Source: Streptomyces sp. SID3343 (lineage in GTDB: Bacteria > Actinomycetota > Actinomycetes > Streptomycetales > Streptomycetaceae). From it: DNA of 40,711 nucleotides. Shown here in pieces: positions 926-16,340 of this stretch (position 1 is its first letter; every line of letters starts with the position of its first letter). Both the position numbers and the translations under genes were made by a program. The notes below the pieces were generated by a model. It made no database searches. It saw only the letters and a program-made list of their open reading frames with translations, and was not told the DNA's origin. The DNA lies in contig NZ_WWJX01001516.1 in the NCBI RefSeq assembly GCF_009865215.1, forward strand, positions 1 through 40,711, written 5' to 3'.

Positions 926-1122
926 CGTCCGCCGCCCTTCCCACGCGCCGGGCGCATGACTATGCACCCGTCGGCGTGGAAGCGGATCGGCTCCGGGTAT
1001 GCCGAGCCGCGCAACAGGGCACCCAGCGGCGCGCGTACCACCACGATCAACACGCCTACGACCAGCCACAGTTGTCTGGCCTCGGGGCCGAGGAATTCGT
1101 TCAAGGCAACGGTTCCTTCCAT
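922..1122 (-). CDS. Small single-pass membrane protein coupled to the sigma factor
   Basis: This 66-residue protein has one hydrophobic segment at about residues 17-37 (LWLVVGVLIVVVRAPLGALL) followed by a basic tail ending in KGGGR. Its stop overlaps the GTG start of the sigma factor by four bases, the arrangement seen in real operons of this window. Codon third positions are mostly G or C. The start is uncertain: ATG 1122 has a GGGGGAG motif rather far upstream, while the TTG six codons later has a GGAAGGA motif about nine bases ahead. I recognise no family. A membrane protein co-translated with a sigma factor could be a small anti-sigma or signalling partner, but it has no zinc-binding anti-sigma motif and this remains a guess. 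Confidence 0.55.
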   Translation of the reverse strand: MEGTVALNEFLGPEARQLWLVVGVLIVVVRAPLGALLRGSAYPEPIRFHADGCIVMRPARGKGGGR

Positions 1123-1756
1123 GAAGTGCCGGCGCGAACTCCCCCGGCCGTCGACAGCGTGCGCCCGGAGGTGTCCATGAGGCCCGAAGACCTCTCACCC
1201 CGGATCTCGCTCGGGAGGGGCCCGGCGTCCAGGGCGCAACGGCAAAACCTGGCCTCCGGCGGCCGGACGACTACACGTTGTCGACCCACCTGGCAGGACA
1301 CCGACGAGGTGGCCCGAGCACGCGAGTCGTCGGACCGGAATCCATGTGCGGGCCGGCGCGCACGGCTGGCCGGGGCACCCGTGAGTTCGAAGCCGGCGTG
1401 CGGCGCGGCCGTCGTCTGGTCGACGGCACACGGACGCCCTGCGGCGGCACACCACGCGGGGCTCGGGTACTGCGGCACCCGTCACTCGCGGCGCCCGGAC
1501 GCGCGGCACCCACACTCGCGGCACCCACACTCGCGGCGCCCACACTCGCGGCGCCCACACGTAAGCCGGTGAACGGGACAGTCGCTCGGGACGCCGATAC
1601 ACGCCCCGTCGGCAGTGTCGCTCGACACAGTCGCCCCCGGCGGGGTGACTTGGTGTGCCGGCCACGGAAAAGGTGGTCGGGATTGGGCGTTTGGACGATG
1701 CCGACCGAGTGTGGGCTGTTCTAGCGTCGCCGACATGGCTATGGGAAGGATCCGAC
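1123..1756. other. Intergenic region between divergent transcription units
   Basis: No convincing gene was found in either strand. Open frames here are continuations or shadows of neighbours and have low-complexity Arg/Pro-rich translations. The stretch must hold promoters for both the leftward sigma-factor operon and the rightward dipeptidase gene. A TAGCGT at 1722-1727 resembles an actinomycete -10 element but has no good -35 partner. It also contains the 15-base tandem repeat at 1483-1557. Confidence 0.6.
1483..1557. repeat. Five-copy 15-base tandem repeat
   Basis: Five head-to-tail units of consensus CACTCGCGGCRCCCA lie at 1483-1497, 1498-1512, 1513-1527, 1528-1542 and 1543-1557. Units three to five differ only at the R position, whereas the first two carry a few more changes. 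The array lies in the intergenic region upstream of the dipeptidase gene. Because the unit is a multiple of three, it produces repetitive translations in every frame, none of which looks like a real protein. Confidence 0.9.
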
Positions 1757-2794
1757 GTGAGCCGTGAACTGCACGCCCGCGCCGTCGTGGCGGATACGCA
1801 CAACGATTTGCTGATGGCGGTGGTCGAGCGGCCGCCGGCTCGGTGGGCGAGTTTCTTCCGGGAGCAGTGGTTGCCGCAGTTGCGTGACGGTGGGGTGGGC
1901 ATCCAGGTCCTGCCGGTGTTCGTGGACGAGCACTTCCGGCCCGAGGGGGCGCTGCGGCGGACGTTGCGCATGGTCGAGTGCGCGCACGCGATCACCGAGG
2001 GCAATCCCGAGGACGTGCGGCTGTGTCTGGACGGCGACGACATCGACGCCGCGCTGTCACAGGGTCGCATCGCGCTGGTACTCGCGCTGGAGAGCGCGCC
2101 CGGGGTGGAGGCCGACCTCGAACTCTTCCGTACGTTGTACCGCCTCGGTGTGCGCGTGGCCTCGATCGCCCACTGGGGTCGGTCCGCGCTCGCCGACGGC
2201 AGCGGTGAGGATGCCACCGGCAGCAGACTCACCGCCGCCGGCGCCGAGGCGCTGCACGAGATGGAGCGTCTGGGCATCATCTTCGACATCTCGCACCTGG
2301 GTGCCTCCGGAGTGGAGCACGTTCTGGAGCTCGCGACTCGCCCTCTGTTGGCGTCGCACTCGGGGGCGCGCGCGGTGCGCGACCATCATCGGAATCTGAC
2401 CGACGAGCAGATCCGCGGGGTCGCCCGCACGGGCGGGGTCGTGTGCGTCAACTTCGTACCGGACTTCGTCTCCGCCGATCCCGACCGCCGGACGATCGAC
2501 GGCATAGTCGACCACATCGAGCACGTCGTCGCGGTGGCCGGCATCGATCACGTGGGCATCGGCCCGGACTTCCTGCGCGAAGTCCTCGCGGACATCACCC
2601 CGCCGTGTTGCGAGGGCGCCGAGGTAACCGGGGTGGATACCTCCGCGACCTTGCCCGGGCTCGAAGGCCCGGCCGAACTTCCGGCGCTCACCGAGGTGTT
2701 GGTGCGGCGCGGTTTCGCCGAGAAGGACATTCTCGCGATTCTCGGCGGCAACGTGCAGCGGCTGTTCCGCGCCGAGCTGGGGCGGGGCCGATGA
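1757..2794 (+). CDS. Membrane-dipeptidase family (peptidase M19) enzyme
   Basis: This 345-residue protein matches the zinc-dependent renal/membrane dipeptidase family, which hydrolyses dipeptides and, characteristically, those with a D-residue at the C-terminal position. Visible ligands are D13 and H15 in DTHND, E112 in LALESAPG, H180 in DISH, H201 in SHSGARA and D271 in GIGPDF. No signal peptide is seen, so it should be cytoplasmic. GTG 1757 was chosen because it has a GGAAGGA ribosome binding site six bases upstream and starts just before the conserved VADTHND strand; an upstream in-frame start would add an unrelated tail. The stop overlaps the next gene's ATG by four bases. With the adjoining M20 enzyme and racemase it probably processes imported dipeptides; the actual substrate is not known. 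Confidence 0.92.
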   Translation: MSRELHARAVVADTHNDLLMAVVERPPARWASFFREQWLPQLRDGGVGIQVLPVFVDEHFRPEGALRRTLRMVECAHAITEGNPEDVRLCLDGDDIDAALSQGRIALVLALESAPGVEADLELFRTLYRLGVRVASIAHWGRSALADGSGEDATGSRLTAAGAEALHEMERLGIIFDISHLGASGVEHVLELATRPLLASHSGARAVRDHHRNLTDEQIRGVARTGGVVCVNFVPDFVSADPDRRTIDGIVDHIEHVVAVAGIDHVGIGPDFLREVLADITPPCCEGAEVTGVDTSATLPGLEGPAELPALTEVLVRRGFAEKDILAILGGNVQRLFRAELGRGR

Positions 2795-3921
2795 CCGCCG
2801 CACGTGGTTTCGACGCCGCGGCGATGCTCGCCGACCTGGAGGAGTTGGTCGTCTGCGAGTCCTTCTCCGCCGACCTGCCGGCCGTCGAGCGCAGCGCGGA
2901 CGTCGTCGCCGCCCAGGGCGCCCGGCTGCTCGGCGCCGAGCCCGAGCGGATCGTCATCGAGGGGGTGACCCACCTGCAATGGGTGTTCGGCACCCCGCGG
3001 GTGCTGTTGGTGGGTCACCACGACACGGTGTGGCCGATGGGGTCGCTGTCCACCCACCCGTGGTCGGTGGTGGACGGTGTCGCGCGCGGGCCGGGCGTCT
3101 TCGACATGAAGGCCGGGCTCGTGCAGATGTTCCACGCGCTGGCGTCACTGGATTCCCTCGACGGGGTCTACGTGCTGATCACCGGCGACGAGGAGGTCGG
3201 CTCGACCACGTCGCGCACGCTGATCGAGGACGCCGCGCGCGCGTGCTCGGCCACGTTCGTGTTGGAGGCGTCGGCCGACGGAGGCGCGCTCAAGACCGCG
3301 CGCAAGGGCGGTTCCCAGTACGAGTTGGTCGTGCACGGCAAGGCCGCGCACGCCGGGCTCGAACCGGAGAAGGGCGTCAACGCGGCGATCGAGGCCGCGC
3401 ACCTGATCCTCGCGGTGAGCAACCTGGCGGACGTCGTCGACGCCGACGGCGTCGAGGGCGGACGTCGTACGACGGTCACTCCCACGGTCGTCCAGGCCGG
3501 GTCGGCGACCAACACCGTCCCCGCCCTCGCCCAGGTTTCCGTCGACGTCCGGGTGCCTACGCTCAAGGCGCAGGCACGCGTGGACGAGTTGATGCGGGGC
3601 CTGACCGCGACCGTGCCGGGGGCCAGGGTGGAGGTGCTCGGCGGTGCCAACCGTCCGCCGCTGGAGGACTCGGCGTCGGGTGCGTTGTTCGACCTCGCCG
3701 GCCTCGCCGCGACCCATCTGGGGCTGCCTCCGCTGCACAGCGCGGCCGTCGGCGGCGCTTCCGACGGCAACTTCACCGCAGGTGTCGGCTGCCCGACCCT
3801 GGACGGCCTGGGCGCGGTCGGCGGCGGCGCGCACGCCGACCACGAACATGTCATCGTCGCCGAGATGGTGCCTCGTTCCCGCTTGTTGGCCGCCTTGATC
3901 GAAGCGGTGCGGCGTGAGTGA
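2791..3921 (+). CDS. M20 family metallopeptidase / N-acyl-amino-acid amidohydrolase
   Basis: The 376-residue product belongs to the M20 zinc peptidase family and is closest in style to carboxypeptidase G2-like enzymes. Motifs include GHHDTVWPMG (first metal histidine), GPGVFDMKAG, the catalytic GDEEVGS pair, a dimerisation domain starting near KGGSQYELVVHGKAAHAG, and AHADHEHV near the C-terminus (last metal histidine). No signal peptide is present. ATG 2791 overlaps the dipeptidase stop (ATGA). Next to an N-acylamino-acid racemase, the most likely role is removal of an N-succinyl or N-acetyl group from L-amino acids, as the L-desuccinylase does in the Geobacillus N-succinylamino-acid racemase pathway. 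Glutamate carboxypeptidase or dipeptidase activity is the main alternative. Confidence 0.9.
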   Translation: MTAARGFDAAAMLADLEELVVCESFSADLPAVERSADVVAAQGARLLGAEPERIVIEGVTHLQWVFGTPRVLLVGHHDTVWPMGSLSTHPWSVVDGVARGPGVFDMKAGLVQMFHALASLDSLDGVYVLITGDEEVGSTTSRTLIEDAARACSATFVLEASADGGALKTARKGGSQYELVVHGKAAHAGLEPEKGVNAAIEAAHLILAVSNLADVVDADGVEGGRRTTVTPTVVQAGSATNTVPALAQVSVDVRVPTLKAQARVDELMRGLTATVPGARVEVLGGANRPPLEDSASGALFDLAGLAATHLGLPPLHSAAVGGASDGNFTAGVGCPTLDGLGAVGGGAHADHEHVIVAEMVPRSRLLAALIEAVRRE

Positions 3922-4020
3922 CCCGGCCGGCGCGACCCGCCCGCAGCGCCCGACGACCCGCACTGTCCGCACGCGTGACCTCGCCGCGTGACCTCGAACC
4001 TCTCCAGGAGACCGAGCACC

Positions 4021-5121
4021 ATGAAAATCACCGGAATCGAACTTCGCCGGATCGCGATGCCGCTCCGGGCGCCCTTTCGCACGTCGTTCGGCGTGGCGAC
4101 CTCCCGCGACATCCTCGTGCTTCGGGTGGTCACGCCCGAGGGTGAGGGGTGGGGCGAGTGTGTCGCGATGTCGGAACCGCGCTACAGCTCCGAGTACGTG
4201 GACGGCGCGGTCGAGGTGCTCAAGCGCTTCCTGATTCCCGCCCTGCCGGACAACGCCGACGCGCATGCGGTCAAGCGGGCCATGAAGCCGTTCAAGGGCC
4301 ACAACATGGCCAAGGCCGCGTTGGAGACGGCCGTTCTGGACGCGCAACTGCGGGCGCGGGGGGAGTCGTTCGGGGCCTATCTGGGGGCCGACCGGGAGAG
4401 CGTGCCGTGCGGCGTGTCGGTGGGGATCATGGACTCGATCCCCGAACTCCTCGACTCCGTCGGTGAGTTCGTCGACGAGGGCTACGTGCGGATCAAGCTC
4501 AAGATCGAGCCCGGCTGGGACCTCGCGCCGGTGCGCGCGGTGCGCGAGCGCTTCGGCGACGACCTGCTGCTCCAGGTCGACGCCAACGCCGCCTACACCC
4601 TCGCCGACGCCCGACACCTCGCCGGGCTCGACGCGTTCGACCTGCTGTTGATCGAACAGCCGCTGGCCGACGACGACCTGGTCCAGCACGCCGCGCTCGC
4701 CCGGCGACTCACCACGCCGATCTGCCTGGACGAGTCGATCGAGTCGGCCGAGGACGCCGCCGCCGCGATCACCCTGGGCGCCGCGTCGATCGTCAACATC
4801 AAGCCCGGCCGGGTCGGCGGCTACCTGGAGGCCAAGGCCATCCACGACCTGTGCGTCGCCCACGGCGTCCCCGTGTGGTGCGGCGGCATGCTGGAGACCG
4901 GCCTCGGCCGCGCCGCCAACATCGCCCTCGCCGCACTGCCCGGATTCACCCTCCCGGGCGACACCTCCGCGTCCCGCCGCTACTACGACACCGACATCAC
5001 CGAGCCGTTCGTCCTCGCCGACGGCCGACTCGACGTACCCACCGGCCCCGGCATCGGCATCGACCCGCTCCCCGAACTGCTGCGCGACGTGACGACGTCC
5101 AGCGAGTGGATCAAGCTCTGA
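4021..5121 (+). CDS. N-acylamino-acid racemase / o-succinylbenzoate synthase family
   Basis: This 366-residue enolase-superfamily enzyme strongly resembles the Amycolatopsis N-acylamino-acid racemase as I remember its sequence. The acid-base pair is visible as K159/K161 in RIKLKIEPGW and K261 in VNIKPGRVGGY. The metal ligands are D187 (QVDANA), E212 (LIEQPL) and D237 (CLDES). Such enzymes interconvert N-acyl or N-succinyl D- and L-amino acids, and some also make o-succinylbenzoate for menaquinone. With no other menaquinone gene here, and an M20 amidohydrolase 99 bases upstream, the racemase role is preferred. ATG 4021 is preceded by AGGAG; the upstream in-frame ATG at 3988 would add a short non-conserved extension. 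A perfect hairpin follows the stop. Confidence 0.93.
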   Translation: MKITGIELRRIAMPLRAPFRTSFGVATSRDILVLRVVTPEGEGWGECVAMSEPRYSSEYVDGAVEVLKRFLIPALPDNADAHAVKRAMKPFKGHNMAKAALETAVLDAQLRARGESFGAYLGADRESVPCGVSVGIMDSIPELLDSVGEFVDEGYVRIKLKIEPGWDLAPVRAVRERFGDDLLLQVDANAAYTLADARHLAGLDAFDLLLIEQPLADDDLVQHAALARRLTTPICLDESIESAEDAAAAITLGAASIVNIKPGRVGGYLEAKAIHDLCVAHGVPVWCGGMLETGLGRAANIALAALPGFTLPGDTSASRRYYDTDITEPFVLADGRLDVPTGPGIGIDPLPELLRDVTTSSEWIKL

Positions 5122-5134
5122 GTCGAGCGAACGC

Positions 5135-5172
5135 GCGCCCGGTCGATCGGGGGAAGACGATCGACCGGGCGC
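5135..5172 (+). terminator. Hairpin terminator after the racemase gene
   Basis: A perfect 15-bp stem pairs 5135-5149 (GCGCCCGGTCGATCG) with 5158-5172 around an eight-base loop, 14 bases after the racemase stop. There is no T-tract, which is common for actinomycete terminators. It separates the dipeptidase-racemase unit from the attenuator-controlled gene that follows. Confidence 0.7.
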
Positions 5173-5253
5173 ACTCGCCGCCGTGGAGCCGGGCGGCAGC
5201 CGCATCCTGAGACGGAGTGGACGACCGTCGCCGGGTATGGAAGGTTCGACGTG

Positions 5254-5301
5254 ATGCGACGTCGGAAGATTATTACCGGCAGCGTGCCGACACCGGGCTG
5301 A
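5254..5301 (+). CDS. Leader peptide (15 residues) with tandem Ile codons
   Basis: The short frame MRRRKIITGSVPTPG begins at ATG 5254 (or the in-frame GTG 5251), nine bases after GGAAGG, and stops at TGA 5299-5301. It carries adjacent ATT ATT codons for isoleucine at 5269-5274 followed by ACC for threonine. ATT is rare in this GC-rich genome, so stalling there would be sensitive to isoleucine supply. About 40 bases downstream lies a textbook intrinsic terminator, then an ACT-domain gene. The arrangement matches ribosome-mediated attenuators of ilv genes in actinobacteria, whose leader peptides also begin with Met-Arg and contain branched-chain codons. It is too short to be recognised except by context. 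Confidence 0.7.
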   Translation: MRRRKIITGSVPTPG

Positions 5302-5341
5302 CCAGGACGATCGACTTCCCTGCCGCCCACCGTCCGCACGC

Positions 5342-5376
5342 AGACCTCTCGCGCTTCGCGAGGGGTCTTTTTGTTT
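5342..5376 (+). terminator. Intrinsic terminator acting as attenuator
   Basis: A 12-bp stem, with one G-T pair, joins 5342-5353 (AGACCTCTCGCG) to 5357-5368 around a CTT loop. It is followed at once by TTTTGTTTG. A T-rich tail like this is rare in this window, and it sits between the leader peptide and the ACT-domain gene, so it most likely acts as a regulated terminator. I did not find a clear antiterminator pairing by eye. Confidence 0.8.
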
Positions 5377-5453
5377 GGCCTCTCGCCCGACGAAGCCGCA
5401 CCCGACGCCCCTCCACTTCGACAGTTCAGATCTCGACAGGAGTACAGCGACCC

Positions 5454-5759
5454 ATGGTTGACGACGGCACTCAGGTCCTCGAAGCCCCGCGGTACGACGA
5501 CCACTCTCCGACGATCGACGGCCGGCCAGGGTTCGACACGGTCAGGCTGGTGGCGCGCATGCGGCACGGCCGCGGCGGGCTCGCCCGGGTCGCGGCCACC
5601 GTGAACAACTTCGACGTCCGTCAACTGACCTACGTGTCGGCGGAGTTCGACGCGGCCACCGTCGATGTCGTGGTCCACGAGCGGGACGCGGCACGGGTCG
5701 AAGCCAAGCTTCGGCGCATGGTCGACGTGATCGACGTGGTGGACGTTTCGTCGGGCTGA
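5454..5759 (+). CDS. Solo ACT-domain protein resembling acetolactate synthase small subunit IlvM
   Basis: The 101-residue product has an N-terminal tail of about 27 residues, then a single ACT-like fold. The first strand is at about residues 29-36 (TVRLVARM), a helix follows from about 42-52, a strand at 56-63, another at 69-76, a second helix around 79-90 and a final strand IDVVDV. The layout and the ending RMVDVIDVVDV resemble the short IlvM-type regulatory subunit of acetolactate synthase. No catalytic subunit gene lies in the window. ATG 5454 follows AGGAG by 11 bases. Control by an isoleucine-codon attenuator supports a branched-chain amino-acid role, such as modulating an acetolactate synthase or threonine deaminase encoded elsewhere. 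Other solo ACT regulators remain possible. Confidence 0.7.
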   Translation: MVDDGTQVLEAPRYDDHSPTIDGRPGFDTVRLVARMRHGRGGLARVAATVNNFDVRQLTYVSAEFDAATVDVVVHERDAARVEAKLRRMVDVIDVVDVSSG

Positions 5760-5891
5760 CGGGCGCTCCCCCGCCGTCTTCGTCGGTCCGCACACATCAC
5801 CCGCCGGTGCTTCGTCGTCACGGCCGAGGGCGCGGCGCACACGCGGAAATAGCGTGGGAGTCCGCCTGTTCCTCGGCCTTGGAGAACCACC

Positions 5892-6800
5892 ATGACCAGC
5901 GCACCGGTACGCACCGACGTCGGCGCCGTCGAGGACCGCCTTCGGGCCGTCTTCGAGGCCGCGGGGACCGAGGGGTTCCTGTACGTTCGCGACGTCGACG
6001 ACGACGACGAGTTCACCTTCCAGGGTGATTCCCGGGTCGTGCTGGCGTCGGTGTTCAAGATCCAGATCGCTCTGGAGTACGCGCGCCAGGTCGCCGCGGG
6101 CAAGCTCGACCGGGCCTCGCGGCACGTGCTCGGCGACGCCTTCAAGGAGGGCACCGGCATCGGCACCGACAGCTTCGCGTACGACGTCGAACTGAGTGTG
6201 CGCGACGCCGCCCAGCTGATGATGACCATGAGCGACAACGCGGCCACCGACCTGGTGCTCGGCATCGTCGGCCGCGAGAACGTACGGGCGACGCTCGACG
6301 AACTGGGGTTCCAGAGCACCGGTGTCACCGGGTGCCGCGAGCTCTTCGACCAAGTGGCCCAAGAGCTCGGTCTCGACCGGGACAGCGACCTCGACCGGCT
6401 GGGCGCGGACATCACCCTCGAACAGATTCGTGCCCTGTCGGTCCGCGACCCCGGGCATGCCGCGACGAGCACCCCACGCGAGATGGCCAACCTGCTCACC
6501 GCGATCTGGCGCGACGAGGCCGGGCCGGCCGAGGCGTGTGCCGAGGTACGGGATCTGATGGGTCGGCAGATCTGGCCGCATCGTCTCTCGTCCGCCTTCG
6601 AGGACGAGATCAGGATCTCCGCCAAGACCGGCACCCTGTGGGGTGTGCGCAACGAGGCCGGGGTGGTCGAGTATCCCGACGGCAAGCGCTACGCGGTGGC
6701 GGTCTTCCTGCGTCCCGAGTCGATGGGTTTTCGCCTGCCGGCGGTCGACGCGGCGATCGGTCGCGCGGCCCGCGAGGTGATCGACCACCTGCGGTCGTAG
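5892..6800 (+). CDS. Class A beta-lactamase-like serine hydrolase (cytoplasmic)
   Basis: The 302-residue protein carries the class A active-site motifs in order: S53-V-F-K56 (SxxK), S114-D-N116 (SDN) and K245-T-G247. SxxK-to-SDN spacing equals that of true class A enzymes, but SDN-to-KTG is about 28 residues longer, because of an acidic, helix-like insertion around residues 150-190 where the omega loop with the deacylating glutamate should be. I cannot identify that glutamate with confidence. There is no signal peptide, so an exported antibiotic-degrading role is unlikely. ATG 5892 is preceded by GGAG. It lies between the amino-acid genes and a peptide transporter operon, suggesting an amide, ester or peptide substrate inside the cell. 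Substrate unknown. Confidence 0.82.
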   Translation: MTSAPVRTDVGAVEDRLRAVFEAAGTEGFLYVRDVDDDDEFTFQGDSRVVLASVFKIQIALEYARQVAAGKLDRASRHVLGDAFKEGTGIGTDSFAYDVELSVRDAAQLMMTMSDNAATDLVLGIVGRENVRATLDELGFQSTGVTGCRELFDQVAQELGLDRDSDLDRLGADITLEQIRALSVRDPGHAATSTPREMANLLTAIWRDEAGPAEACAEVRDLMGRQIWPHRLSSAFEDEIRISAKTGTLWGVRNEAGVVEYPDGKRYAVAVFLRPESMGFRLPAVDAAIGRAAREVIDHLRS

Positions 6801-6848
6801 CCGGCGGGAACGGATGCAGCGGGCCGCCGTCGAGGGGCGCCGCGAGTG

Positions 6849-6877
6849 CGCGAGAGCCACGGGCAGTGGCTCTCGCG
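6849..6877 (+). terminator. Hairpin after the serine hydrolase gene
   Basis: A perfect 12-bp stem pairs 6849-6860 (CGCGAGAGCCAC) with 6866-6877 around a five-base GGGCA loop. It starts 49 bases after the stop of the hydrolase gene. No T-tract follows. It is probably the end of that transcript. Confidence 0.6.
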
Positions 6878-7490
6878 GGCCGCTCCGATCGAGGGGTACG
6901 GCCGAGGAACGTCTCGCGCGGGGCACGATCGAGAGCCGGCTCGTGCGAGGTATGGCCGACAACGTCTCGCCCCGGGCGCGGCCCAGGAACGTCGGTGCAC
7001 GACGTGCGGCCGAAGTCTCGCCGGGACCGCGCCCGGCCGGGCATCACGGGCACGCGCAACCGAGTGGGACCGGTCCCACGTCCCGGCCGGCCGCCGCGCG
7101 CTTTTCGCGCACCACCGCCGTGGTCACGTCGTCAACGCCGCCACCGACCCCCCACGGGCACCACGCCGGCCACGCCCGTCCTCGGGTGTCGGCCCCGGCA
7201 GTGGCCCCCGGCGCGCACGATCGAGTCGATGCCGGCGGTCCCCGCCGACCGAGTGGATCGGGGGACGTGCACCCACCCGTGACGTGGCTCCCGTCCGTTG
7301 CGCCGCATGGGCGCGGCCCGTGGAACACCCCCGCAGAGGATCGCCCGCGGCGGCCCGATTCGGCGTCGGTGATTCCGACAGGTTCGGCGGTGGTTCTTCG
7401 TCGGCGACGACGATTCGGGGATTTCGGGCGCTGCCTAACGTGATCGCTCACCGCGGCGCTCACCACCGCCGCCCTACGAGGAGGTACCCG
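6878..7490. other. Long intergenic region upstream of the peptide transporter operon
   Basis: About 600 bases lie between the hairpin and the next start codon. Open frames that cross this stretch give Arg/Pro/Gly-rich translations without family features. The frame leading into the next gene is open through it but lacks a ribosome binding site until 7479-7484. I see no further gene, RNA or repeat. The operon promoter should be here, although I could not pick a clear one. Confidence 0.5.
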
Positions 7491-8996
7491 ATGACGGGAC
7501 GTTCCGATGCGCCCTCGGCCGCGGCCGATGCGCAGGCCGCCGGCCCTGGCTCGCAGAACCCCGACACGACCCTCCCGTTGCCGACGCCCGAGTACCTCGC
7601 GACCCGGCTCGCCGAGCTGATCCGGCGGGGGAACATCCCCGGCGCGAGCGTCGCGGTGCGTGCCGGGACCGAGACCGTCACCGCCACGGCGGGCGTACTG
7701 GGCCTGGCGACCGGCTACCCGGTGACCGCCGACTCGGTCTTCCAGATCGGCTCCATCACCAAGGTGTGGACCGCGACCCTGGTGATGCAGCTCGTCGACG
7801 AGGGCGTGATCGATCTCGACGCCCCGGTGCGCACCTACCTTCCCGAGTTCCGGACCGTCGACGAGGCCGCCTCGAAGGCCGTGACGATCCGTCAACTGCT
7901 GACCCACACCAGTGGTATCGAGGGCGACATCTTCGACGACCACGGGTTCGGCGACGACGCGGTGGCGACGTACGTCGCGGGTCTGGCCGAGACCGCGCCG
8001 CAGATCTTCCCGCCCGGTGAGCGGTTCTCGTACTGCAACAGCGGAATCGTGGTCCTCGGCCGGGTCGTCGAGGTGCTGACCGGCCAGACGTGGGAAGCCA
8101 CGTTGCGCGAGCGTCTGGTCGTGCCGTTGGGTCTGGCCCACGTGGCCAACGACGCGAACGAGGCGATCCTGCAACACGCGGCCATCGGCCACATGCCCGG
8201 CCCCGACGGCACGTTGGTCACGGTGCCGACCTGGCAGATGCCCCGGAGCAACTCGCCGGCCGGCTCGAACCTGGCCATGTCCGCGACGAACCTGCTCGAA
8301 TTCGCCGCCGCGCACGTCAACCTCGGCCTGCTTCCCGACGGGACACGCCTGCTGTCGGAGTCCTCCGCCCTGGCGATGCGGGTGCCCCACGTCGACGTGC
8401 CGGGCCCCGAACCGATCGGCTCCGCATGGGGCTTGGGCTGGAACCTGTACGACTGGGCCGGCGGCCCGGTCGTCGGCCACGACGGCGGCACGCTCGGCCA
8501 GAGCGCGATGCTGCGGGTGGTGCCCTCGCGCGGCGTCTCGATCGCGATCCTCACCAACGGCGGCAATCTGCTCGTCATGTACGACCTGGTCCGCGAGTTG
8601 TTCGCCGGCCTCGCGGACGTGCGGGTCCCCGAGTTGCCGACGCCGCCCGCCGAGCCCGCCACCGTCGACCCGCGTTACTTCGTCGGCCGCTACGCCTCGC
8701 GGAGCTCCGCGCTCGACGTCACCGAGACCGAGGACGGGCTGAACGTGAGCATGCGGTTGCTCGGTTCGATGGCGGCCCTGGCGGGCGGTGACCGCGCCTC
8801 GGTCACCAAGGTCGTGGCGGCGGACGCCCGCACGCTCGTGGCCACCGAGCAGCAGGACGGGCGACACGCGGTGTACTCGTTCGTCGGCGACGGTGACCGC
8901 GCCGAGTTCCTGTACCAGGGCCGCGCCGTGCGCCGGGTGTCGGCCGGCGAGGCCGAGCAGGATGTCGCGGACCGCTCCGAAGAGGGGCACGAGTGA
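7491..8996 (+). CDS. Serine hydrolase, class C beta-lactamase / D-aminopeptidase-like (S12)
   Basis: This 501-residue protein has the S12 motifs S88-I-T-K91 (SxxK), Y181-C-N183 (YxN) and H329-D-G331-G. The catalytic domain ends near residue 380. A further 110 residues, rich in short strands, resemble the beta-barrel extensions of D-aminopeptidases and related enzymes. No signal peptide is visible, so it should work in the cytoplasm. ATG 7491 has an AGGAGG site six bases upstream, which decides against the longer open frame. Its stop overlaps the start of the substrate-binding lipoprotein, making it the first gene of a six-gene peptide-uptake operon. A peptidase or amidase acting on imported D-residue peptides is a reasonable inference; esterase activity cannot be excluded. 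Confidence 0.88.
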   Translation: MTGRSDAPSAAADAQAAGPGSQNPDTTLPLPTPEYLATRLAELIRRGNIPGASVAVRAGTETVTATAGVLGLATGYPVTADSVFQIGSITKVWTATLVMQLVDEGVIDLDAPVRTYLPEFRTVDEAASKAVTIRQLLTHTSGIEGDIFDDHGFGDDAVATYVAGLAETAPQIFPPGERFSYCNSGIVVLGRVVEVLTGQTWEATLRERLVVPLGLAHVANDANEAILQHAAIGHMPGPDGTLVTVPTWQMPRSNSPAGSNLAMSATNLLEFAAAHVNLGLLPDGTRLLSESSALAMRVPHVDVPGPEPIGSAWGLGWNLYDWAGGPVVGHDGGTLGQSAMLRVVPSRGVSIAILTNGGNLLVMYDLVRELFAGLADVRVPELPTPPAEPATVDPRYFVGRYASRSSALDVTETEDGLNVSMRLLGSMAALAGGDRASVTKVVAADARTLVATEQQDGRHAVYSFVGDGDRAEFLYQGRAVRRVSAGEAEQDVADRSEEGHE

Positions 8997-10561
8997 TGAG
9001 ACGGACCCCGCGCGTGGCCGCCACGGCCCTCGCGCTCGGCCTCGTCGCCGGCGGCTGTGGCGCCGATGCCGGCAGCACCGGCGCCGAGGGCGCGGTCGGC
9101 ATCAGCATCGGCGGTGATCCGGCGAACCTGTCGCCGCTGACCGGCACCGCCTCGACCACGTTGCTGATGAATCGGTTCGCGTACGACCCGCTGGTGAACG
9201 TCGACGCGCGGGGAAACGTCGTCTCGGGAGTCGCCGAGACGTGGAGCGCCGACCTCACCTCGGCGAACTTCACCCTCAAGCGCGGGGTGACGTGCGTGGA
9301 CGGTACGGAGTTCAAGGCATCCGACGCCGCCGCCCAGTTCAACTACATGGCGAACCCGGCCAAACCCTCGCCCCTCCTGGGTCTGAGTGTGCCCGTCGGC
9401 GTCGTCGCCACCGCCGACGACGCCGCCAACACGCTCTCGCTCAGGACCGAACAGCCCGTCGCGTTCTTCCTGCGGATGATCTCGCTCGTGCCGCTCACCT
9501 GTGCCAAGGGGCTCGCCTCGCCCGACGCGCTGATCAGCGCGTCGGAGGGTACCGGCCCGTATCGCCTCGCCGAGGCCGTGCCGAACGACCACTACACCTA
9601 CGTCAAGCGCCCCGGCTACACGTGGGGACCCGACGGCGGCGGATCCGAGTCGGCTCCGGAGAAGGTCGTCTTCAAGATCGTCCCCAACGAGACGACCCGG
9701 GCCAATCTGCTTTTGGCCGGTCAGTTGGACATCGCGCGTGTCAACGGCGCCGACCGCCGTCGCCTCGACGCGGCCGGCGTCAAGTCGGAACTCGAACTGG
9801 TCCCGGTCGGCCAACTGTTGTTCAACGAGACACCCGAGCACCCCACGTCGGACCAGCGGGTGCGCTGGGCGCTGACCGCGGCGCTCGACCTCAAGCAGTT
9901 GGCGGCCGTGGCCACCGGCGGCAAGGCGCGGCCGTCGACCATCCTGGGGGCGAGCATGGCAGTGCCCTGCACCGGCGATTCGGTCACCCCCAACACCCCG
10001 CCGCACGACCGCGAGCGCGCCGCCCGAGCGCTCACCGAGGCCGGCTGGAAGAAGACCGGCGGCCGATGGACCAAGAACGGCGAGCGACTGTCGATCACCC
10101 TGTCGTTCCCCGCCGCGTCCGGCACCCCGCTCGTCTCCGCCGCCGAACTGGCGGCCAAGCAGTGGAGTTCGTTCGGCGTGCAGGTCGACCGTCAGCCCAC
10201 CACCCCGGCCACGCTCGGCCAGATCCTGTCCGCCGGTGACTGGGACGTGTCCTGGACACCGATCGCGGTCGCCAATCCCGACATGAACGTGCCCTTCTTC
10301 TCCGGACCCCGGCCCCCCGAGGGGAACAACTTCGGCGGCGTCGACAACCCCGAGTATCGACGCCTGGTGTCTGTCGCCGCCACCAAGCCGGACACCGCGG
10401 GCTGCGCCGAATGGACCGCCGCCGAATCCGAGTTGGCCAAGCGCGTCGACGTAGTGGCCTTCGCGGACATGCTCATCCCTTATTTCACCAAGGGATACAC
10501 CTTCAGCTTGGATGGAAACGGACTCTTGCCCACCTCTTTGCGCCCGGTAGGTGACCGATGA
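8996..10561 (+). CDS. Peptide ABC transporter substrate-binding lipoprotein (SBP family 5)
   Basis: The protein starts with a basic N-terminus, a hydrophobic stretch and a lipobox ending LVAGGC (C21), so it is exported and lipid-anchored outside the membrane. The rest fits family 5 solute-binding proteins for oligopeptides, dipeptides or nickel. Landmarks are the early LSPLTGTAS segment, FTLKRGVTCVDGTEFKASDA, the GTGPYRL strand and the later RVRWALTAALDLKQL helix. ATG 8996 overlaps the upstream stop, and an in-frame GTG sits one codon before. The stop overlaps the permease ATG (ATGA). Position 1 of the transporter and the flanking peptidases point to peptide import. The exact ligand cannot be read from sequence. 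Confidence 0.9.
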   Translation: MRRTPRVAATALALGLVAGGCGADAGSTGAEGAVGISIGGDPANLSPLTGTASTTLLMNRFAYDPLVNVDARGNVVSGVAETWSADLTSANFTLKRGVTCVDGTEFKASDAAAQFNYMANPAKPSPLLGLSVPVGVVATADDAANTLSLRTEQPVAFFLRMISLVPLTCAKGLASPDALISASEGTGPYRLAEAVPNDHYTYVKRPGYTWGPDGGGSESAPEKVVFKIVPNETTRANLLLAGQLDIARVNGADRRRLDAAGVKSELELVPVGQLLFNETPEHPTSDQRVRWALTAALDLKQLAAVATGGKARPSTILGASMAVPCTGDSVTPNTPPHDRERAARALTEAGWKKTGGRWTKNGERLSITLSFPAASGTPLVSAAELAAKQWSSFGVQVDRQPTTPATLGQILSAGDWDVSWTPIAVANPDMNVPFFSGPRPPEGNNFGGVDNPEYRRLVSVAATKPDTAGCAEWTAAESELAKRVDVVAFADMLIPYFTKGYTFSLDGNGLLPTSLRPVGDR

Positions 10562-11547
10562 GCGCCACGACCATGGCCGCCCGCTTCACCGGCGCCCGCC
10601 CCGGCCCTTGGACCGCCTTCCTGCTGCGTCGTACCGGCCGCCTCCTGGTATCCCTCGTCGCACTGGTCACCGCGTCCTTCCTGATGATCCACCTCGTCCC
10701 CGGCGACCCGGTCCAAGCCGCCCTCGGCCTCAGCGCCTCGCCCGAGGCGGTCAAGGCCCGCAAGCACGAACTGGGCCTGGACCAGTCGTTGTTCACCCAG
10801 TACGGCGACTTCGTCCGCGGCATCTTCGACGGTGACCTCGGTCAGTCGATCACCGCCCGGGTCCCCGTGTCGCAGATGATCGGCGACCGACTGCCCGCGA
10901 CGCTCGAACTCGCGGTCATCGCGTTCGTGATCGCGATGCTGGTCGCCATCCCGCTCGGCATGGCGATGGCCGTCTACACCCGCAACGGCCGTCGCCGCCG
11001 CGGCGAACTCGGTTTCATCGGCGTGACCGGGGCGATCGTGGCGATCCCCGAGTTCCTCCTCGCCGTCGCCCTCACCTCGGTGTTCGCCGTTTCGCTCGGC
11101 TGGTTCCCGGTGGCCCTGCGCGGCGGTCCCGACTCGTACGTGCTGCCCGTGCTCGCCCTCGCGATCACCCCGATCGCCGCGCTGTCGCGCATCGTTCGGG
11201 TGGAGGCGCTGCGGGTGTTCGACGCCGACTACATGCGCACCGCCCGTGCCAAGCGGCTGCCGGCCCGGTTGGTGTACACCCGCCACGCGTTGCCGAACCT
11301 GCTGACCTCCTCGCTCACCCTCGGCGGTCTGCTGCTGAGCGGAATGCTCGCCGGCACCGTCCTGATCGAGAACGTCTTCGCGTGGCCCGGCCTGGGCATG
11401 ACCATCGTCCAGGCGATCCTGCAGAAGGACTATCCGCTCGTGCAAGGCATCGTGCTCGTGTACGGAGCAGCGGCCCTGGCGATCAACTTCACGGTCGACG
11501 TCGCCGTCGCCGCCGCCGATCCCCAATCCACCATTCGCGGGAGCTGA
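10558..11547 (+). CDS. Peptide ABC transporter permease, DppB-like
   Basis: This 329-residue inner-membrane protein is of the DppB/OppB type. It begins with a membrane segment containing SFLMIHLVPGDPVQAALG and keeps the DQSLFTQYGDFVRGIFDGDLG segment usual in this family. The EAA-like cytoplasmic loop appears as VEALRVFDADYMRTARAKRL followed by RHALPNLL. About six membrane segments are visible. ATG 10558 overlaps the stop of the binding protein. It pairs with the permease half of the next gene to form the transport channel. Confidence 0.92.
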   Translation: MSATTMAARFTGARPGPWTAFLLRRTGRLLVSLVALVTASFLMIHLVPGDPVQAALGLSASPEAVKARKHELGLDQSLFTQYGDFVRGIFDGDLGQSITARVPVSQMIGDRLPATLELAVIAFVIAMLVAIPLGMAMAVYTRNGRRRRGELGFIGVTGAIVAIPEFLLAVALTSVFAVSLGWFPVALRGGPDSYVLPVLALAITPIAALSRIVRVEALRVFDADYMRTARAKRLPARLVYTRHALPNLLTSSLTLGGLLLSGMLAGTVLIENVFAWPGLGMTIVQAILQKDYPLVQGIVLVYGAAALAINFTVDVAVAAADPQSTIRGS

Positions 11548-11549
11548 CG

Positions 11550-13412
11550 ATGCCCGACGCACCCCGATTCCGCCGCGCCCTGCGTACTCCGCTGGGCATG
11601 TCCGCCGCGGTCGCGACCACGATCATCGCGCTGGTCGCGATCTTCGGCCCGATGGTGTTCGGCGACACGGCCGACCGCATCGACACCGACCAGATCGGCC
11701 GCCACAGCGGCCTCGAACACCCCTTCGGCACCGACGCGTTGGGGCGCGACATCGCCGCCCGCGTGATGGTCGCCACCCGTCTCACCCTCGAACTGACCTT
11801 GTTCGCGACGCTGATCGCGGCCGTCGGGGGCATCGTCCTCGGTGTCCTGCCGACGGTCCTGGGCAAGCGCGCGGGTCGCCTCGTCACCGCGACCGTCAGT
11901 CTGCTCGTCGCCTTCCCCGGACTGCTGTTCGTCCTCTTCCTGGCGGTCATCTTCGGAGTGGGCACCTATTCCGCGGCGTTCGCCATCGGGCTCGGCGCCG
12001 CGCCGGCCACCGCCAGGCTCGTGCAGAATCTGACGTTGTCCATCGCCGGGATCGACTACGTGGCCGCGGCCCGCATCCTGGGCGTCGGCCGCTTCAAGAT
12101 CATCGTCCGCCATGTGCTGCCCAACATCGCCGAACCGGTGGTCCTGTTCCTCTCCCAGACCGCTGCGGGCATCCTGGTCGCCTTCTCCGGCCTGTCCTTC
12201 CTGGGCCTGGGCGTACAGCCCCCCGACTACGACTGGGGCCGGCTGCTCAACGAACAACTCGACCGGGTGATGATCGACCCGATGTCGGCCGTGGGGCCGG
12301 GCTCCGCGATCGTGCTCACCGGCATCACGTTCGGTCTGATCGGCGAGGTCATCGCCAAGATGAGCGGCGGACGCACCGCCCCGCAGGGCGAGGTCGCCGC
12401 CGACCCGTCGGGCGCCGAGTCGCCGGTCGTCGACCGGGCACCCGAGGGTCTGTTGCACATCGACCACCTCCAGGTGCGTTTCCCGGGCGGCCACACGGCG
12501 GTTCGCGACGTGTGCCTGACCGTGGCGGAAGGCGAGGCCGTCGGCATCGTCGGCGAGTCCGGCTCGGGCAAGAGCCTCACTGCCCTCGCCGCGGCCGGGC
12601 TCGTCCCCCACCCCGGCCGAGTCGACGCTCACACCCTGCGCTTCGCCGAGCGCGACATGCGCACCCAGGCGCCGCAGGGTACGTCGATGGCCATGGTCTT
12701 CCAGGACCCGATGGCCTCGCTCAATCCGGCTCTGACGGTCGGCCGGCAACTCTCCGAGGTTGCCGAGGTCCACCACGGCGCGTCGCGTGCCGCGGCGACC
12801 GCCCGCGCCGTCGCCCGCCTGGGCGCGGTCCGCATCCCCAAGCCCGAACAGCGGGTGGGCCAACGCCCGCACGAGTTCTCCGGCGGCATGCGACAGCGCG
12901 TGATGATCGCGATGGGGCTGATGGGCGAGCCGCGGCTGATCATCGCCGACGAGCCCACCACCGCGCTGGACGTGACCGTACAGAGCCGGGTGCTCGGCCT
13001 GTTGCGCGACGTGCGCGCCGAATCGGGCGCCGCGCTGCTGCTCATCTCGCACGACATCGCCGTCGTCTCGCAGGTGTGTGATCGCGTCGTGGTGATGTAC
13101 GCGGGCCGAGTCGTCGAGGAACTGCCCGTCGGCGACCTCGCGGCGGGCGTCGCGCACCCGTACACGGCCGCGCTGCTCGGCGCGATCCCCGACATGACCA
13201 CGGACCGGGACACCCCGCTCGTGACCATCCCGGGGCGACCTCCCGAGCCCGGCGAGGACTTGGCCGGCTGCCCGTTCGCCCCGCGCTGTGAGCGGGCGAG
13301 CGACCGCTGCCGGACCGAGCAGCCGGTCCTGGAACCGATCGGTCCCGGTCGTCGGGTCGCCTGCTGGGACCCGGTCACCACCCACACTCCCGAATCGGAG
13401 GAGGCCCGATGA
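11550..13412 (+). CDS. Peptide ABC transporter permease-ATPase fusion (DppC-DppD)
   Basis: Two normally separate subunits are joined in this 620-residue protein. Residues 1-270 form a DppC/OppC-like permease with about six membrane segments; GTDALGRDIAARV and the DYVAAARILGVGRFKIIVRHVLPN coupling segment (169-192) are clear. A 25-residue linker rich in Pro, Ala and Gly leads to an ATPase from about residue 300. It has Walker A GESGSGKS (335-342), signature FSGGMRQR (443-450), Walker B LIIADEP (463-469) and the C-terminal cysteine motif CPFAPRC with two more cysteines, typical of DppD/OppD. The frame is continuous with no stop at the junction. The start lies two bases after the previous stop. 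The end overlaps the second ATPase gene. Confidence 0.93.
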   Translation: MPDAPRFRRALRTPLGMSAAVATTIIALVAIFGPMVFGDTADRIDTDQIGRHSGLEHPFGTDALGRDIAARVMVATRLTLELTLFATLIAAVGGIVLGVLPTVLGKRAGRLVTATVSLLVAFPGLLFVLFLAVIFGVGTYSAAFAIGLGAAPATARLVQNLTLSIAGIDYVAAARILGVGRFKIIVRHVLPNIAEPVVLFLSQTAAGILVAFSGLSFLGLGVQPPDYDWGRLLNEQLDRVMIDPMSAVGPGSAIVLTGITFGLIGEVIAKMSGGRTAPQGEVAADPSGAESPVVDRAPEGLLHIDHLQVRFPGGHTAVRDVCLTVAEGEAVGIVGESGSGKSLTALAAAGLVPHPGRVDAHTLRFAERDMRTQAPQGTSMAMVFQDPMASLNPALTVGRQLSEVAEVHHGASRAAATARAVARLGAVRIPKPEQRVGQRPHEFSGGMRQRVMIAMGLMGEPRLIIADEPTTALDVTVQSRVLGLLRDVRAESGAALLLISHDIAVVSQVCDRVVVMYAGRVVEELPVGDLAAGVAHPYTAALLGAIPDMTTDRDTPLVTIPGRPPEPGEDLAGCPFAPRCERASDRCRTEQPVLEPIGPGRRVACWDPVTTHTPESEEAR

Positions 13413-14251
13413 CATCCGTGAGCCCCGTGCACTCGGCCGATCCCCCGGCCGCCGTGTCCCGCACGACGGGCGCGACGTCGGGATCGCTCGAACTGCGCCA
13501 CATCACCGTGCGCTACGGTCGCGGTCGCGGCGCCGTGACCGCCGTCGACGACGCGCAGTTGGAGGTTCCGGCGGGCAGCGTGGTCGGGCTCGTCGGCGGG
13601 TCCGGTTCGGGCAAGTCGACGCTCGGTCGCGCGGCGGTGGGCCTGGTGCCGATCGCCGCGGGACAGGTTCTCGTCGACGGCGTCGACATGGGTCGCCGGC
13701 CGCGCCGGGGCCCGGTCCAGATGGTCTTCCAGGACCCGTTCGCCTCGCTCGACCCGCGAATGACCATCGGCGCCTCGGTCGCCGAGGCGGTGCCGCGCGG
13801 CGGCGATCGGGCGCAGCGGGCGAGCGAGGTCGCCCGGCATCTCGATCTGGTCGGCATCGACCCCGGCATGGGCTCGCGCCTGCCGCACGCCCTTTCGGGT
13901 GGCCAGCGCCAGCGGGTGGCGCTCGCGCGGGCGCTCGCGGCGCGTCCCGCCGTGTTGGTGGCCGACGAGATCACCTCGGCGCTCGACGTGTCGGTGCAGG
14001 GCGCGGTGCTCAATCTCGTCCGGGATCTCCAGCGCGAGCTGGGCTTCGCCCTGCTGTTCATCTCGCACAACCTGGCCGTCGTGCGCTACATCGCGGACCG
14101 GATCGCGGTGATGGACCACGGCGTGATCGTCGAGAACGGCCTCACCACGCAGGTCCTGGAGGACCCTGCGCACGAGTACACGCGCGCGCTCCTGTCGAGC
14201 GTGCCCCGGATCGGGCAGCCGCTGCCCGACGCGCAGGTGGAGGCACTGTGA
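13409..14251 (+). CDS. Peptide ABC transporter ATP-binding protein, DppF-like
   Basis: The 280-residue protein has Walker A GGSGSGKS (63-70), a Q-loop in VFQDPFASLDPRM, signature LSGGQRQR (162-169), a Walker B VLVADE strand and the switch histidine in FISHNLAVV. It lacks the C-terminal cysteine motif present in the ATPase half of the preceding fusion, which is tolerable for an OppF/DppF partner. The two should form a heterodimeric motor. ATG 13409 overlaps the preceding stop, and its own stop overlaps the GNAT gene (GTGA), so all are probably translated from one message. Confidence 0.92.
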   Translation: MTSVSPVHSADPPAAVSRTTGATSGSLELRHITVRYGRGRGAVTAVDDAQLEVPAGSVVGLVGGSGSGKSTLGRAAVGLVPIAAGQVLVDGVDMGRRPRRGPVQMVFQDPFASLDPRMTIGASVAEAVPRGGDRAQRASEVARHLDLVGIDPGMGSRLPHALSGGQRQRVALARALAARPAVLVADEITSALDVSVQGAVLNLVRDLQRELGFALLFISHNLAVVRYIADRIAVMDHGVIVENGLTTQVLEDPAHEYTRALLSSVPRIGQPLPDAQVEAL

Positions 14252-15174
14252 CATCGACACCGCAACGCGCCCGAGGCGGATGTCTCTCGCTCGACTCCCC
14301 GGACCCTCGTGATCCCCGTGAGCGGGCGGCGGCCGCCGCCGAGCGCGCGACGCAGGCGGCGGGCGTGGAGATCCGCGAGTTGCACTCGCCGGCCGACATG
14401 TTCGAAGCGTGTCGACTCTTCGAACGGGTGTGGCGCACCGACTCGACCAGTCCGTTGATGACGATCGAGCTGATGCTCGTGCTGGCGCATTGCGGCGGCT
14501 ACGTCGTGGGCGGCTACGAGGGTGGGCGGATGACGGCGGCCGCCGCCGGGCTGCTCACCCCGACCGGCCTGCACTCGCATATCGCCGGTGTCGACGAGGG
14601 CTCGCGCGGGCGCGACATCGGCTACGCGCTCAAGACCCACCAGCGCGCGTGGTGCCTGGCGCACGACATCACCGAGGTCACCTGGACGTACGACCCGCTG
14701 GTCGGCCGCAACGCGTGGTTCAATCTGGCCAAGCTCGGTGCGATTCCGGTCGAGTACCTGCCGAACTTCTACGGGCGCAGGTCCGACGGGCTCAACGGGG
14801 ACGCGCCGTCCGACCGGCTTCTGGTGCGGTGGGACCTGTCCACCGAGCGGGTCGCGCTCACGGGTGAGGGCGTGTCGCACGGGATCGAGCCGGATCCGGT
14901 GGTCGCCGGCGCCGAGGTCGGTGCCGGGGCGACCGTGGTGGGGCTGGACGCGGGGCCCGACGGGCGTCCGATCGTGGGGCGGCTCGACGGTGACGTCGTG
15001 CTCGTACGCGTTCCCCGCGACATCGAGACGCTGCGCGGGACCGATCCGGATTCGGCGGACGCGTGGCGGATGGCGATGCGGGACGTGTTGGGCGTGCTGA
15101 TGGCCGAGGGCCGCGCCGTGTGGGGGTTCAGCCGGCAGGGCTGGTACGTGGTCGGTCGGAGCCCGCAGCCCTGA
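14248..15174 (+). CDS. GNAT-superfamily acyltransferase (predicted D-amino-acid N-acyltransferase)
   Basis: This 308-residue protein begins with a variable 30-residue tail, then a GNAT-like domain from about IRELHSPADMFEACRLFERVW. Features include the strand GGYVVGGYEGGRMTAAAAG and a coenzyme-A loop region SRGRDIGYALKTHQRAWCLA, followed by ITEVTWTYDPLVGRNAWFNLAKLG. It fits the predicted GNAT acetyltransferase group that I associate with N-acylamino-acid racemase genes. A GNAT enzyme is the succinyl-CoA:D-amino-acid N-succinyltransferase of the Geobacillus racemase pathway. GTG 14248 overlaps the ATPase stop, so an acyltransferase is embedded at the end of a peptide-uptake operon. Acyl-donor and substrate are inferred, not shown. 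Confidence 0.8.
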   Translation: MTSTPQRARGGCLSLDSPDPRDPRERAAAAAERATQAAGVEIRELHSPADMFEACRLFERVWRTDSTSPLMTIELMLVLAHCGGYVVGGYEGGRMTAAAAGLLTPTGLHSHIAGVDEGSRGRDIGYALKTHQRAWCLAHDITEVTWTYDPLVGRNAWFNLAKLGAIPVEYLPNFYGRRSDGLNGDAPSDRLLVRWDLSTERVALTGEGVSHGIEPDPVVAGAEVGAGATVVGLDAGPDGRPIVGRLDGDVVLVRVPRDIETLRGTDPDSADAWRMAMRDVLGVLMAEGRAVWGFSRQGWYVVGRSPQP

Positions 15175-15207
15175 CCGAACCACCCGGCGGCCCATGCCGC
15201 TTCGATG

Positions 15208-15272
15208 GGAACGGTCTCGGAGTCGGGCACGCGCGATGGTGGTTCGCGTGGCTCCGACTCCGAGACCGTTTC
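15208..15272 (+). terminator. Long hairpin at the end of the transporter operon
   Basis: A perfect 17-bp inverted repeat pairs 15210-15226 (AACGGTCTCGGAGTCGG) with 15254-15270. A G-T and a G-C pair extend it outwards. The 27-base interior holds its own 6-bp stem, CACGCG at 15228-15233 with CGCGTG at 15245-15250. It begins 34 bases after the GNAT stop. A terminator or transcript-end stabiliser is likely. Confidence 0.7.
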
Positions 15273-15410
15273 GGTGCGTCGGTGGGTGGCCACGGCGCGG
15301 CGCGTCGGGGTGTGGCCTGCGGTTTTTCGCCATGTGCGACCGGCCGTTCGAGGTGTGGGTCCGGTGTGGGAGCATCGTCGCTTCCGACTGCGACGGGGAA
15401 AGAAAAAGCC

Positions 15411-15638
15411 ATGCTCATCTGGGGAAACAAGACCCTCTTCAAGACGCTGTCCGAAGGCGTCTTCCACTGTCCGCGATGCGGTGTCGCGCGCGCCTATCGG
15501 CAGCGGTTGGCCAGGCGCTGGTTCACCCTGTTCTTCATCCCGGTCTTCCCGTACCGGACGGACGACTCGCACGTCGAATGCACCACGTGCAAGGGGACGT
15601 TCCACGACGCGGTCCTCCAGCCGTCCGCCACCGCGTAG
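15411..15638 (+). CDS. Small zinc-ribbon protein
   Basis: The 75-residue product contains two cysteine knuckles, CPRC at about residues 19-22 and CTTC at about 60-63, separated by a hydrophobic stretch RRWFTLFFIPVFPYRT. This matches the zinc-ribbon domain proteins found across actinomycetes, of unknown function. ATG 15411 follows a purine-rich GGGGAAAG site. A perfect terminator lies 11 bases after the stop. It stands alone between the transporter operon and the MarR gene, so context adds little. Confidence 0.75.
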   Translation: MLIWGNKTLFKTLSEGVFHCPRCGVARAYRQRLARRWFTLFFIPVFPYRTDDSHVECTTCKGTFHDAVLQPSATA

Positions 15639-15648
15639 CACCGACCGG

Positions 15649-15695
15649 GCCCGAGGCGGCGCGTCGCCACTTGCGACGCGCCGCCTCGGGCTTTG
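15649..15695. terminator. Bidirectional terminator between zinc-ribbon and marR-type genes
   Basis: A perfect 19-bp stem pairs 15649-15667 (GCCCGAGGCGGCGCGTCGC) with 15673-15691 around a CACTT loop, followed on the plus strand by TTTGT. It lies between two convergent genes and probably ends both. Confidence 0.9.
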
Positions 15696-15737
15696 TCGTG
15701 TGTCAGGGCTCTGTGGTTCGTCTGGGCTTGTCGTTCG

Positions 15738-16325: not shown

Positions 16326-16340
16326 GGGGCCGAGACTACT

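Follow-up and report, generated by a model that had tools for sequence, protein, structure and literature searches.

A candidate D-peptide salvage locus in Streptomyces sp. SID3343 and the recurrence of its gene set in actinomycetes

The DNA analysed here, referred to below as the window, is an entire contig (G000:C741; 40,711 bases) from a draft genome of Streptomyces sp. SID3343 consisting of 1,645 contigs, with a contamination estimate of 6.69. Its plus strand carries, in this order, genes for an M19 dipeptidase, an M20 hydrolase, an N-acylamino acid racemase of the N-succinylamino acid racemase/o-succinylbenzoate synthase (NSAR/OSBS) family, a small protein, a class A beta-lactamase-like hydrolase, an S12 serine hydrolase, a solute-binding protein (SBP), DppB, a DppC-DppD protein, DppF and a GNAT N-acyltransferase. 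Judging from their sequences and arrangement, these genes probably constitute an actinomycete D-peptide salvage system. The SBP-DppB-DppCD-DppF importer would take up short peptides holding D-residues, and the S12, class A-like and M19 hydrolases would cleave them inside the cell, a step to which many relatives add a fused S9-S12 peptidase that is present in their loci and presumably active. The D-amino acids thus released would be acylated by the GNAT enzyme, with succinyl-CoA as the probable donor, the racemase would interconvert the N-acyl-D and N-acyl-L forms, and the M20 enzyme would deacylate the L-form, giving a net flow from D to L. The GNAT-racemase-M20 inversion chemistry is known for the family; we infer the D-stereochemistry of the substrates and succinyl as the acyl group from published work on it, and the cargo is presumably peptides. 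Such a system would let the cell feed on the D-rich peptides of other microbes, be they lipopeptides, other non-ribosomal peptides or wall peptides.

The racemase and the GNAT are linked beyond chance. With presence cut-offs of E up to 1e-60 for the racemase and up to 1e-15 for the GNAT, 112 of 394 genomes of the class had both genes, five the racemase only, two the GNAT only and 275 neither (p 1.7e-89, a value overstated because the genomes are related). Mostly five candidates were scored per genome in these protein searches, so “absent” may hide copies. The GNAT gene lay no more than 5 kb from the racemase for 115 of 140 racemase genes, 113 times upstream on the same strand, and the median gap among the 115 was 72 bases. 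The 25 racemase genes without a GNAT inside 5 kb include that of the window, where a GNAT gene lies 9 kb away in another operon.

The earlier note on this DNA had proposed surveying the racemase neighbourhoods for GNAT and S12 genes, and this survey bore out the association. Of 138 racemase places in genomes other than that of the window, it covered the 60 with the highest scores, in regions of up to 20 kb, several of them shorter because contigs end; a Dpp set was counted as present when at least three of its four genes were found. GNAT was found in 49 regions, M20 in 43, S12 in 42, Dpp in 32, S9 in 30, a blaA-like gene in 15, SBP in 14 and M19 in six. The controls, 20 of 43 listed regions on the same contigs 60-80 kb away, contained no S12, S9, blaA-like, M19, SBP or GNAT gene, with M20 and Dpp once each; two of the 20 showed weak matches (28-30%) to the racemase query. 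A further 20 of 29 lone-GNAT places were also examined. In the 20 matched regions, S12 was present in 14, versus none of the controls (one-sided Fisher test, unpaired, p 1.7e-6), S9 in 11 versus none and Dpp in 10 versus one. In the 39 loci with both M20 and GNAT, the two were on the same strand in 38, with a median gap of 120; the nearest S12 was on the racemase strand in 29 of 42 regions, as were Dpp sets in 27 of 60.

In a named set consisting of the best 80 of at least 594 matches (36 name groups, biased to close relatives), GNAT, racemase, M20, S12 and Dpp genes occurred together in 32 loci from 13 of the 36 groups. Single runs are found in Klenkia (S12-SBP-DppB-C-D-F-M20-GNAT-racemase; locus L220) and in Amycolatopsis kentuckyensis (M20-GNAT-racemase-S12-blaA-SBP-DppB-C-D-F-S9; L223). 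Because the neighbourhoods are conserved and 13 of 36 named groups carry the set together, the joining of import, hydrolysis and inversion is a recurrent arrangement in many actinomycete genera. The linkage on which the earlier note built its import-hydrolysis-inversion pathway is thus strongly supported by conserved neighbourhoods in many genera and the pathway as a whole in part; the joining of the three functions, which that note had considered the unusual point, recurs across actinomycetes, and it is the window that is split and rearranged.

In many relatives, an S9 oligopeptidase gene (PF00326 with PD40 repeats) sits between DppF and S12. S9 was present in 83 of 191 loci, a count that includes overlapping loci of the same genomes, and was fused to S12 in one open reading frame (ORF) in 54; neither S9 nor the fusion occurred in the 20 controls. 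In the named set, the fusion was found in 28 of 80 loci, from 15 groups. The fused proteins comprise 1097 amino acids in L168 of Kibdelosporangium (5558-8851) and 1102 in L212 (5364-8672), with both active-site regions of the L168 protein intact when read by eye, and the S9 protein of another locus (L155) has its nearest structures among S9-family proteins and acyl-peptide hydrolases. Comparison of the loci revealed no S9 in the window; the genome has one elsewhere (contig C165, 56%), and the initial 9 kb of C165 contain no further query gene.

Profile searches and ORF reading located all the genes reported in the earlier note at its positions, all on the plus strand: M19, M20 and racemase genes together and an S12-led transporter operon ending in GNAT, with the checked motifs intact; the class A-like hydrolase had been left out of that inventory. 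The window enzymes look active. The PDB chain nearest to the M19 protein, the motifs of which are intact, is the dipeptidase 3id7 (E 2e-40), from a family that we take to cleave L-D dipeptides. The M20 protein has all of the motifs HHDT, DMKAG, DEEVG, EAS and HADHE, and its best match in the PDB is carboxypeptidase G2, with DapE proteins matching more weakly. The racemase belongs to the NSAR/OSBS family by its catalytic lysines and metal ligands. Its closest PDB structure is the NSAR/OSBS of Amycolatopsis sp. T-1-60 (1sja), with which it shares all seven active-site residues compared (K161, K163, D189, E214, D239, K263 and R266), among which are the residues with catalytic-lysine and metal-ligand roles in this family.

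The S12 protein belongs to the penicillin-recognising hydrolases by fold and by its SITK, YCN and HDG motifs (SxxK/YxN/HxG). Its predicted structure (pLDDT, the predicted local confidence score, 87.6) matched IS11 esterase best, followed by SurE (also with D-Leu), Pab87, Lip3 DL-peptidase and Ulm16, with further matches to R61 DD-peptidase, ClbP, D-amino acid amidase, alkaline D-peptidase and D-aminopeptidase. It thus has the fold and motifs of the S12 D-peptidases and their relatives (alkaline D-peptidase, D-aminopeptidase, Lip3, ClbP and SurE), from which it differs in having no hydrophobic N-terminus; in many related loci, moreover, an S12 is fused to S9. Such an N-terminus is absent from all window hydrolases, the class A-like one included, and present in the SBP (2.31), in a simple scan that is weak evidence, since only 13 of 46 SBPs of relatives reached at least 2.0, some being truncated at locus edges. 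The class A-like hydrolase is nearest to BlaB (PDB 2wuq) and has the SVFK, SDN and KTG motifs (SxxK/SDN/KTG). A beta-lactamase role was considered for it and rejected: the ExxLN motif with the deacylating Glu is absent, so that the protein is not a typical beta-lactamase, and it scored 80.9 bits on bla_class_A against a cut-off of 200.

The importer has the Opp/Dpp architecture, with an SBP_bac_5 protein, two permease domains and two ATPase domains with oligo_HPY, and differs from other such peptide ABC importers in that the DppC permease and DppD ATPase form one protein and that the SBP is also close to nickel-binding NikA. The highest-scoring models for its subunits are those for oligo/dipeptides and nickel. 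The six genes from S12 to GNAT are linked by short overlaps or, once, a 2-base gap, and the GTGA overlap between DppF and GNAT described in the earlier note is real (14248-14251). The GNAT protein, scanned within a longer ORF (13288-15174), had no Pfam or NCBIfam match, and a sequence search of the PDB gave no relative with E up to 0.1; the structure predicted for it (pLDDT 89.9) has the GNAT fold, with a top Foldseek match at probability 1.00 and a template-modelling (TM) score to target of 0.83.

The history of the window would account for the distant GNAT. Embleya scabrispora and E. hyalina are among the best named matches of the window GNAT, and in three of three Embleya sisters searched, the M19-M20 operon holds its own GNAT between M20 and the racemase. 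The window DNA aligns to both flanks of this sister gene (79-84%) but without the gene itself, of about 0.8 kb. In a quick tree, the window GNAT clustered with the GNATs of Embleya importer operons (support 99), within a group of 17 rows, 10 of them from importer-racemase operons (support 94, not starred), and apart from the M19-M20 GNAT of the sisters (L034). Both operons lie on one contig in two sisters, with about 20 and 28 kb between their GNAT genes. In all three sisters the class A-like gene is divergent from S12, whereas in the window the two are on the same strand. The window therefore looks like a rearranged pair of modules, a split version of the arrangement, in which one GNAT may serve both. 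Most likely, the GNAT gene of the inversion operon was lost and the racemase now relies on the one in the importer operon, at a distance of 9 kb. Two more GNAT genes in the genome could also serve the window racemase: one on contig C1630, directly beside a second racemase, and a match on C470 with an in-frame TAG.

Alternatively, the racemase might act in menaquinone synthesis as an o-succinylbenzoate synthase (MenC), with incidental neighbours. It matches the TIGR01928 model of that name above the cut-off, public annotation labels the racemase menC in the plasmid records examined, and NSAR/OSBS enzymes can catalyse both reactions. In the window's genome, however, menD scored no more than 61.9 bits where the cut-off is 244.2, the best menB match was weak (E 8.6e-39; cut-off 342.7 bits), and mqnC of the futalosine route scored above its cut-off. 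A menaquinone role, the alternative that the earlier note had set against its own pathway, was therefore rejected as unlikely for this genome, and, with GNAT as the conserved partner of the racemase, we regard the MenC explanation as very improbable. At least three racemases in other genomes (G116, G328 and G386) do lie 8-12 kb from menB, menB positions having been entered for 11 contigs, which is not a full count. In two genomes of the same genus (g36; G116:C7 and G328:C33), menB is 8-10 kb from an M19-M20-GNAT-racemase set. Where menB is near, as in G116 and G328, the racemase perhaps has a double role.

The conserved set might also be real and serve a cargo other than D-residue peptides, to be opened by S12/S9 and M20; amino compounds bearing acyl or ester groups, a metallophore or some special natural product are examples. 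This would suit the scores of the SBP on the NikA and CntA models, the esterase as the structure nearest to S12, the resemblance of M20 to carboxypeptidase G2 and the PRK09061-type amidohydrolase of a Streptomyces plasmid locus. We nevertheless consider it unlikely, as the most constant partner is GNAT, which adds an acyl group, S9 and M19 are peptidase families, and the importer scores include those on oligo/dipeptide models. The same biochemistry could, alternatively, serve not nutrition but the detoxification of D-peptide antibiotics or the reuse of peptides from the cell's own wall. Some known resistance enzymes are D-stereospecific S12 peptidases, and regulators of the MurR/RpiR family adjoin the racemase-GNAT pair in Priestia, Deinococcus ficus and Sulfitobacter. 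Importing an antibiotic before cleaving it would, however, be an odd defence, and inversion of the freed D-amino acids points to their use, making this explanation quite unlikely in our view.

Several of these observations, namely the menB neighbours, the NikA match of the SBP, the esterase match and the carboxypeptidase G2-like M20 (not of the TIGR01891 type, on which it scores 42 bits, as against 263 bits for the M20 beside the Priestia pair), also weigh against D-peptide salvage, and so do the following. The S12 model also matches LACTB, EstG and class C beta-lactamases; the nearest S12 is on the opposite strand from the racemase in 13 of 42 regions, 28 of 60 regions have no Dpp set within 10 kb, and only six of 60 have M19. 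The GNAT-racemase pair on C1630 is complete, and a reading of the whole stretch as one operon was rejected because of the hairpins and gaps.

The racemase-GNAT pair also occurs outside actinomycetes and on plasmids, for which 5 of 44 plasmid records were picked by hand. The gene order is MurR/RpiR regulator-racemase-SBP-GNAT-M20 in Deinococcus ficus; racemase, SBP and GNAT in D. radiodurans; MurR/RpiR regulator, amino-acid ABC importer, racemase and GNAT in Sulfitobacter indolifex, with no M20 in the stretch; and MurR/RpiR regulator, M20, a transporter-like gene, GNAT and racemase in Priestia megaterium. The Priestia transporter-like gene (L232:7159-8639) is broken into two ORFs and looks, by eye, like an amino-acid permease. 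The Streptomyces plasmid carries MFS, serine hydrolase, PRK09061-type amidohydrolase, M20, GNAT and racemase genes, continuing with a PucR-type regulator, S12, serine hydrolase, SBP, DppB and DppCD. Its amidohydrolase (L235:6249-7724), between the serine hydrolase and M20-GNAT-racemase, is presumably, from the family name, a D-glutamate deacylase. Outside actinomycetes, the pair adjoins amino-acid-type transport genes in the loci examined, and this swap of importers, seen in few loci, is the best comparative hint that the cargo would be peptides in actinomycetes and free amino acids elsewhere.

The features of the window are listed in Table 1. On the basis of three hairpins and the gaps between genes, they probably fall into three or more transcription units, made up of M19-M20-racemase, of the class A-like hydrolase and of S12-SBP-DppB-DppCD-DppF-GNAT. 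Taken alone, the hairpins are weak evidence, as a terminator scan found three versus 4.1 expected, such hairpins being no rarer in shuffled sequence. A sigma-70 scan of positions 1-16400 found no promoters, and an Rfam scan of the window gave no matches at gathering score.

Table 1. Coordinates and supporting evidence of features in the window.
Feature	Position	Strand	Evidence or remark
M19 dipeptidase	1757-2794	+	PF01244, E 7e-84; ORF may start at 1655
M20 metallo-hydrolase, candidate deacylase	2791-3921	+	PF01546, PF07687; 4-base overlap with M19
N-acylamino acid racemase (NSAR/OSBS family, MR_MLE)	4021-5121	+	1sja, E 2e-169; TIGR01928, 309 bits
Hairpin directly 3' of racemase, likely transcription-unit end	5135-5172	+	15-nt perfect inverted repeat
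Hairpin with T run, 5' of small gene	5342-5368		Hairpin scan
Small gene	5454-5759	+	No Pfam match
Class A beta-lactamase-like serine hydrolase	5892-6800	+	PF13354, E 7e-52
Hairpin 3' of class A-like gene	6849-6877		Hairpin scan
S12 serine hydrolase, opens importer operon	7491-8996	+	PF00144
Family 5 solute-binding protein (SBP)	8996-10561 (start 8993 or 8996)	+	PF00496
DppB-type permease	10558-11547	+	PF00528, PF19300
DppC-type permease and DppD-type ATPase, single ORF	11550-13412	+	PF00528, PF00005, PF08352
DppF-type ATPase	13409-14251	+	PF00005, PF08352
GNAT N-acyltransferase, candidate D-amino acid acyltransferase	14248-15174	+	Predicted fold, GTGA overlap with DppF, racemase co-occurrence, tree

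The region 5' of the small gene (5254-5368) contains a 15-codon leader ORF (MRRRKIITGSVPTPG) followed by the hairpin with a T run, which together look like an attenuator ahead of this gene, the product of which we take to be ACT-like. The leader DNA was found in four of four genomes of the genus and in none of 57 other genomes searched. Further downstream (16385-25320), genes for an MFS exporter, a siderophore-interacting protein, an ATP-grasp ligase, an IucA/IucC protein and a pyridoxal phosphate (PLP) decarboxylase probably form a separate siderophore gene set independent of nonribosomal peptide synthetases (NRPS).

The closest known system is the N-succinylamino acid racemase pathway for D-to-L inversion in Geobacillus kaustophilus, reportedly described by Sakai et al. 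in 2006. The two share the GNAT, NSAR/OSBS racemase and M20 hydrolase, which are adjacent in many actinomycetes: GNAT is linked to the racemase at the family level and M20 is linked to it too, with a subtype unlike that of Priestia. The actinomycete set differs in adding a Dpp-type importer, S12, the S9-S12 fusion and class A-like and M19 hydrolases, and the window differs in its carboxypeptidase G2-like M20 and in having its GNAT in another operon. By this comparison, the chemistry is mostly that of the known pathway, and what appears new is its coupling to a peptide importer and D-peptidase-type hydrolases. No published description of the gene set or the S9-S12 fusion was recognised, in a shallow coverage of the literature in which absence proves little.

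We see an even chance that actinomycetes own a widespread, dedicated D-peptide-eating set composed of a Dpp importer, a two-headed S9-S12 fused serine peptidase assisted by an unfused S12 and by class A-like and M19 enzymes, and a module for stereo-inversion under acyl protection. Cyclic lipopeptides are rich in D-residues. Streptomyces venezuelae is reported to degrade the cyclic lipopeptides of its neighbours and to live on them (PMC10783051); other papers form related literature (PMC8142540, PMC8762209, PMC7431475, PMC13188892 and PMC6351551). If the proposal is true, it would account for the route by which D-amino acids from foraged lipopeptides and further non-ribosomal peptides reach metabolism, and the label “menC” would mislead in many annotations. 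The conserved set already calls this common label into question, makes the use of D-residues testable gene by gene, supplies a marker for the trait and offers the S9-S12 fused peptidase for study.

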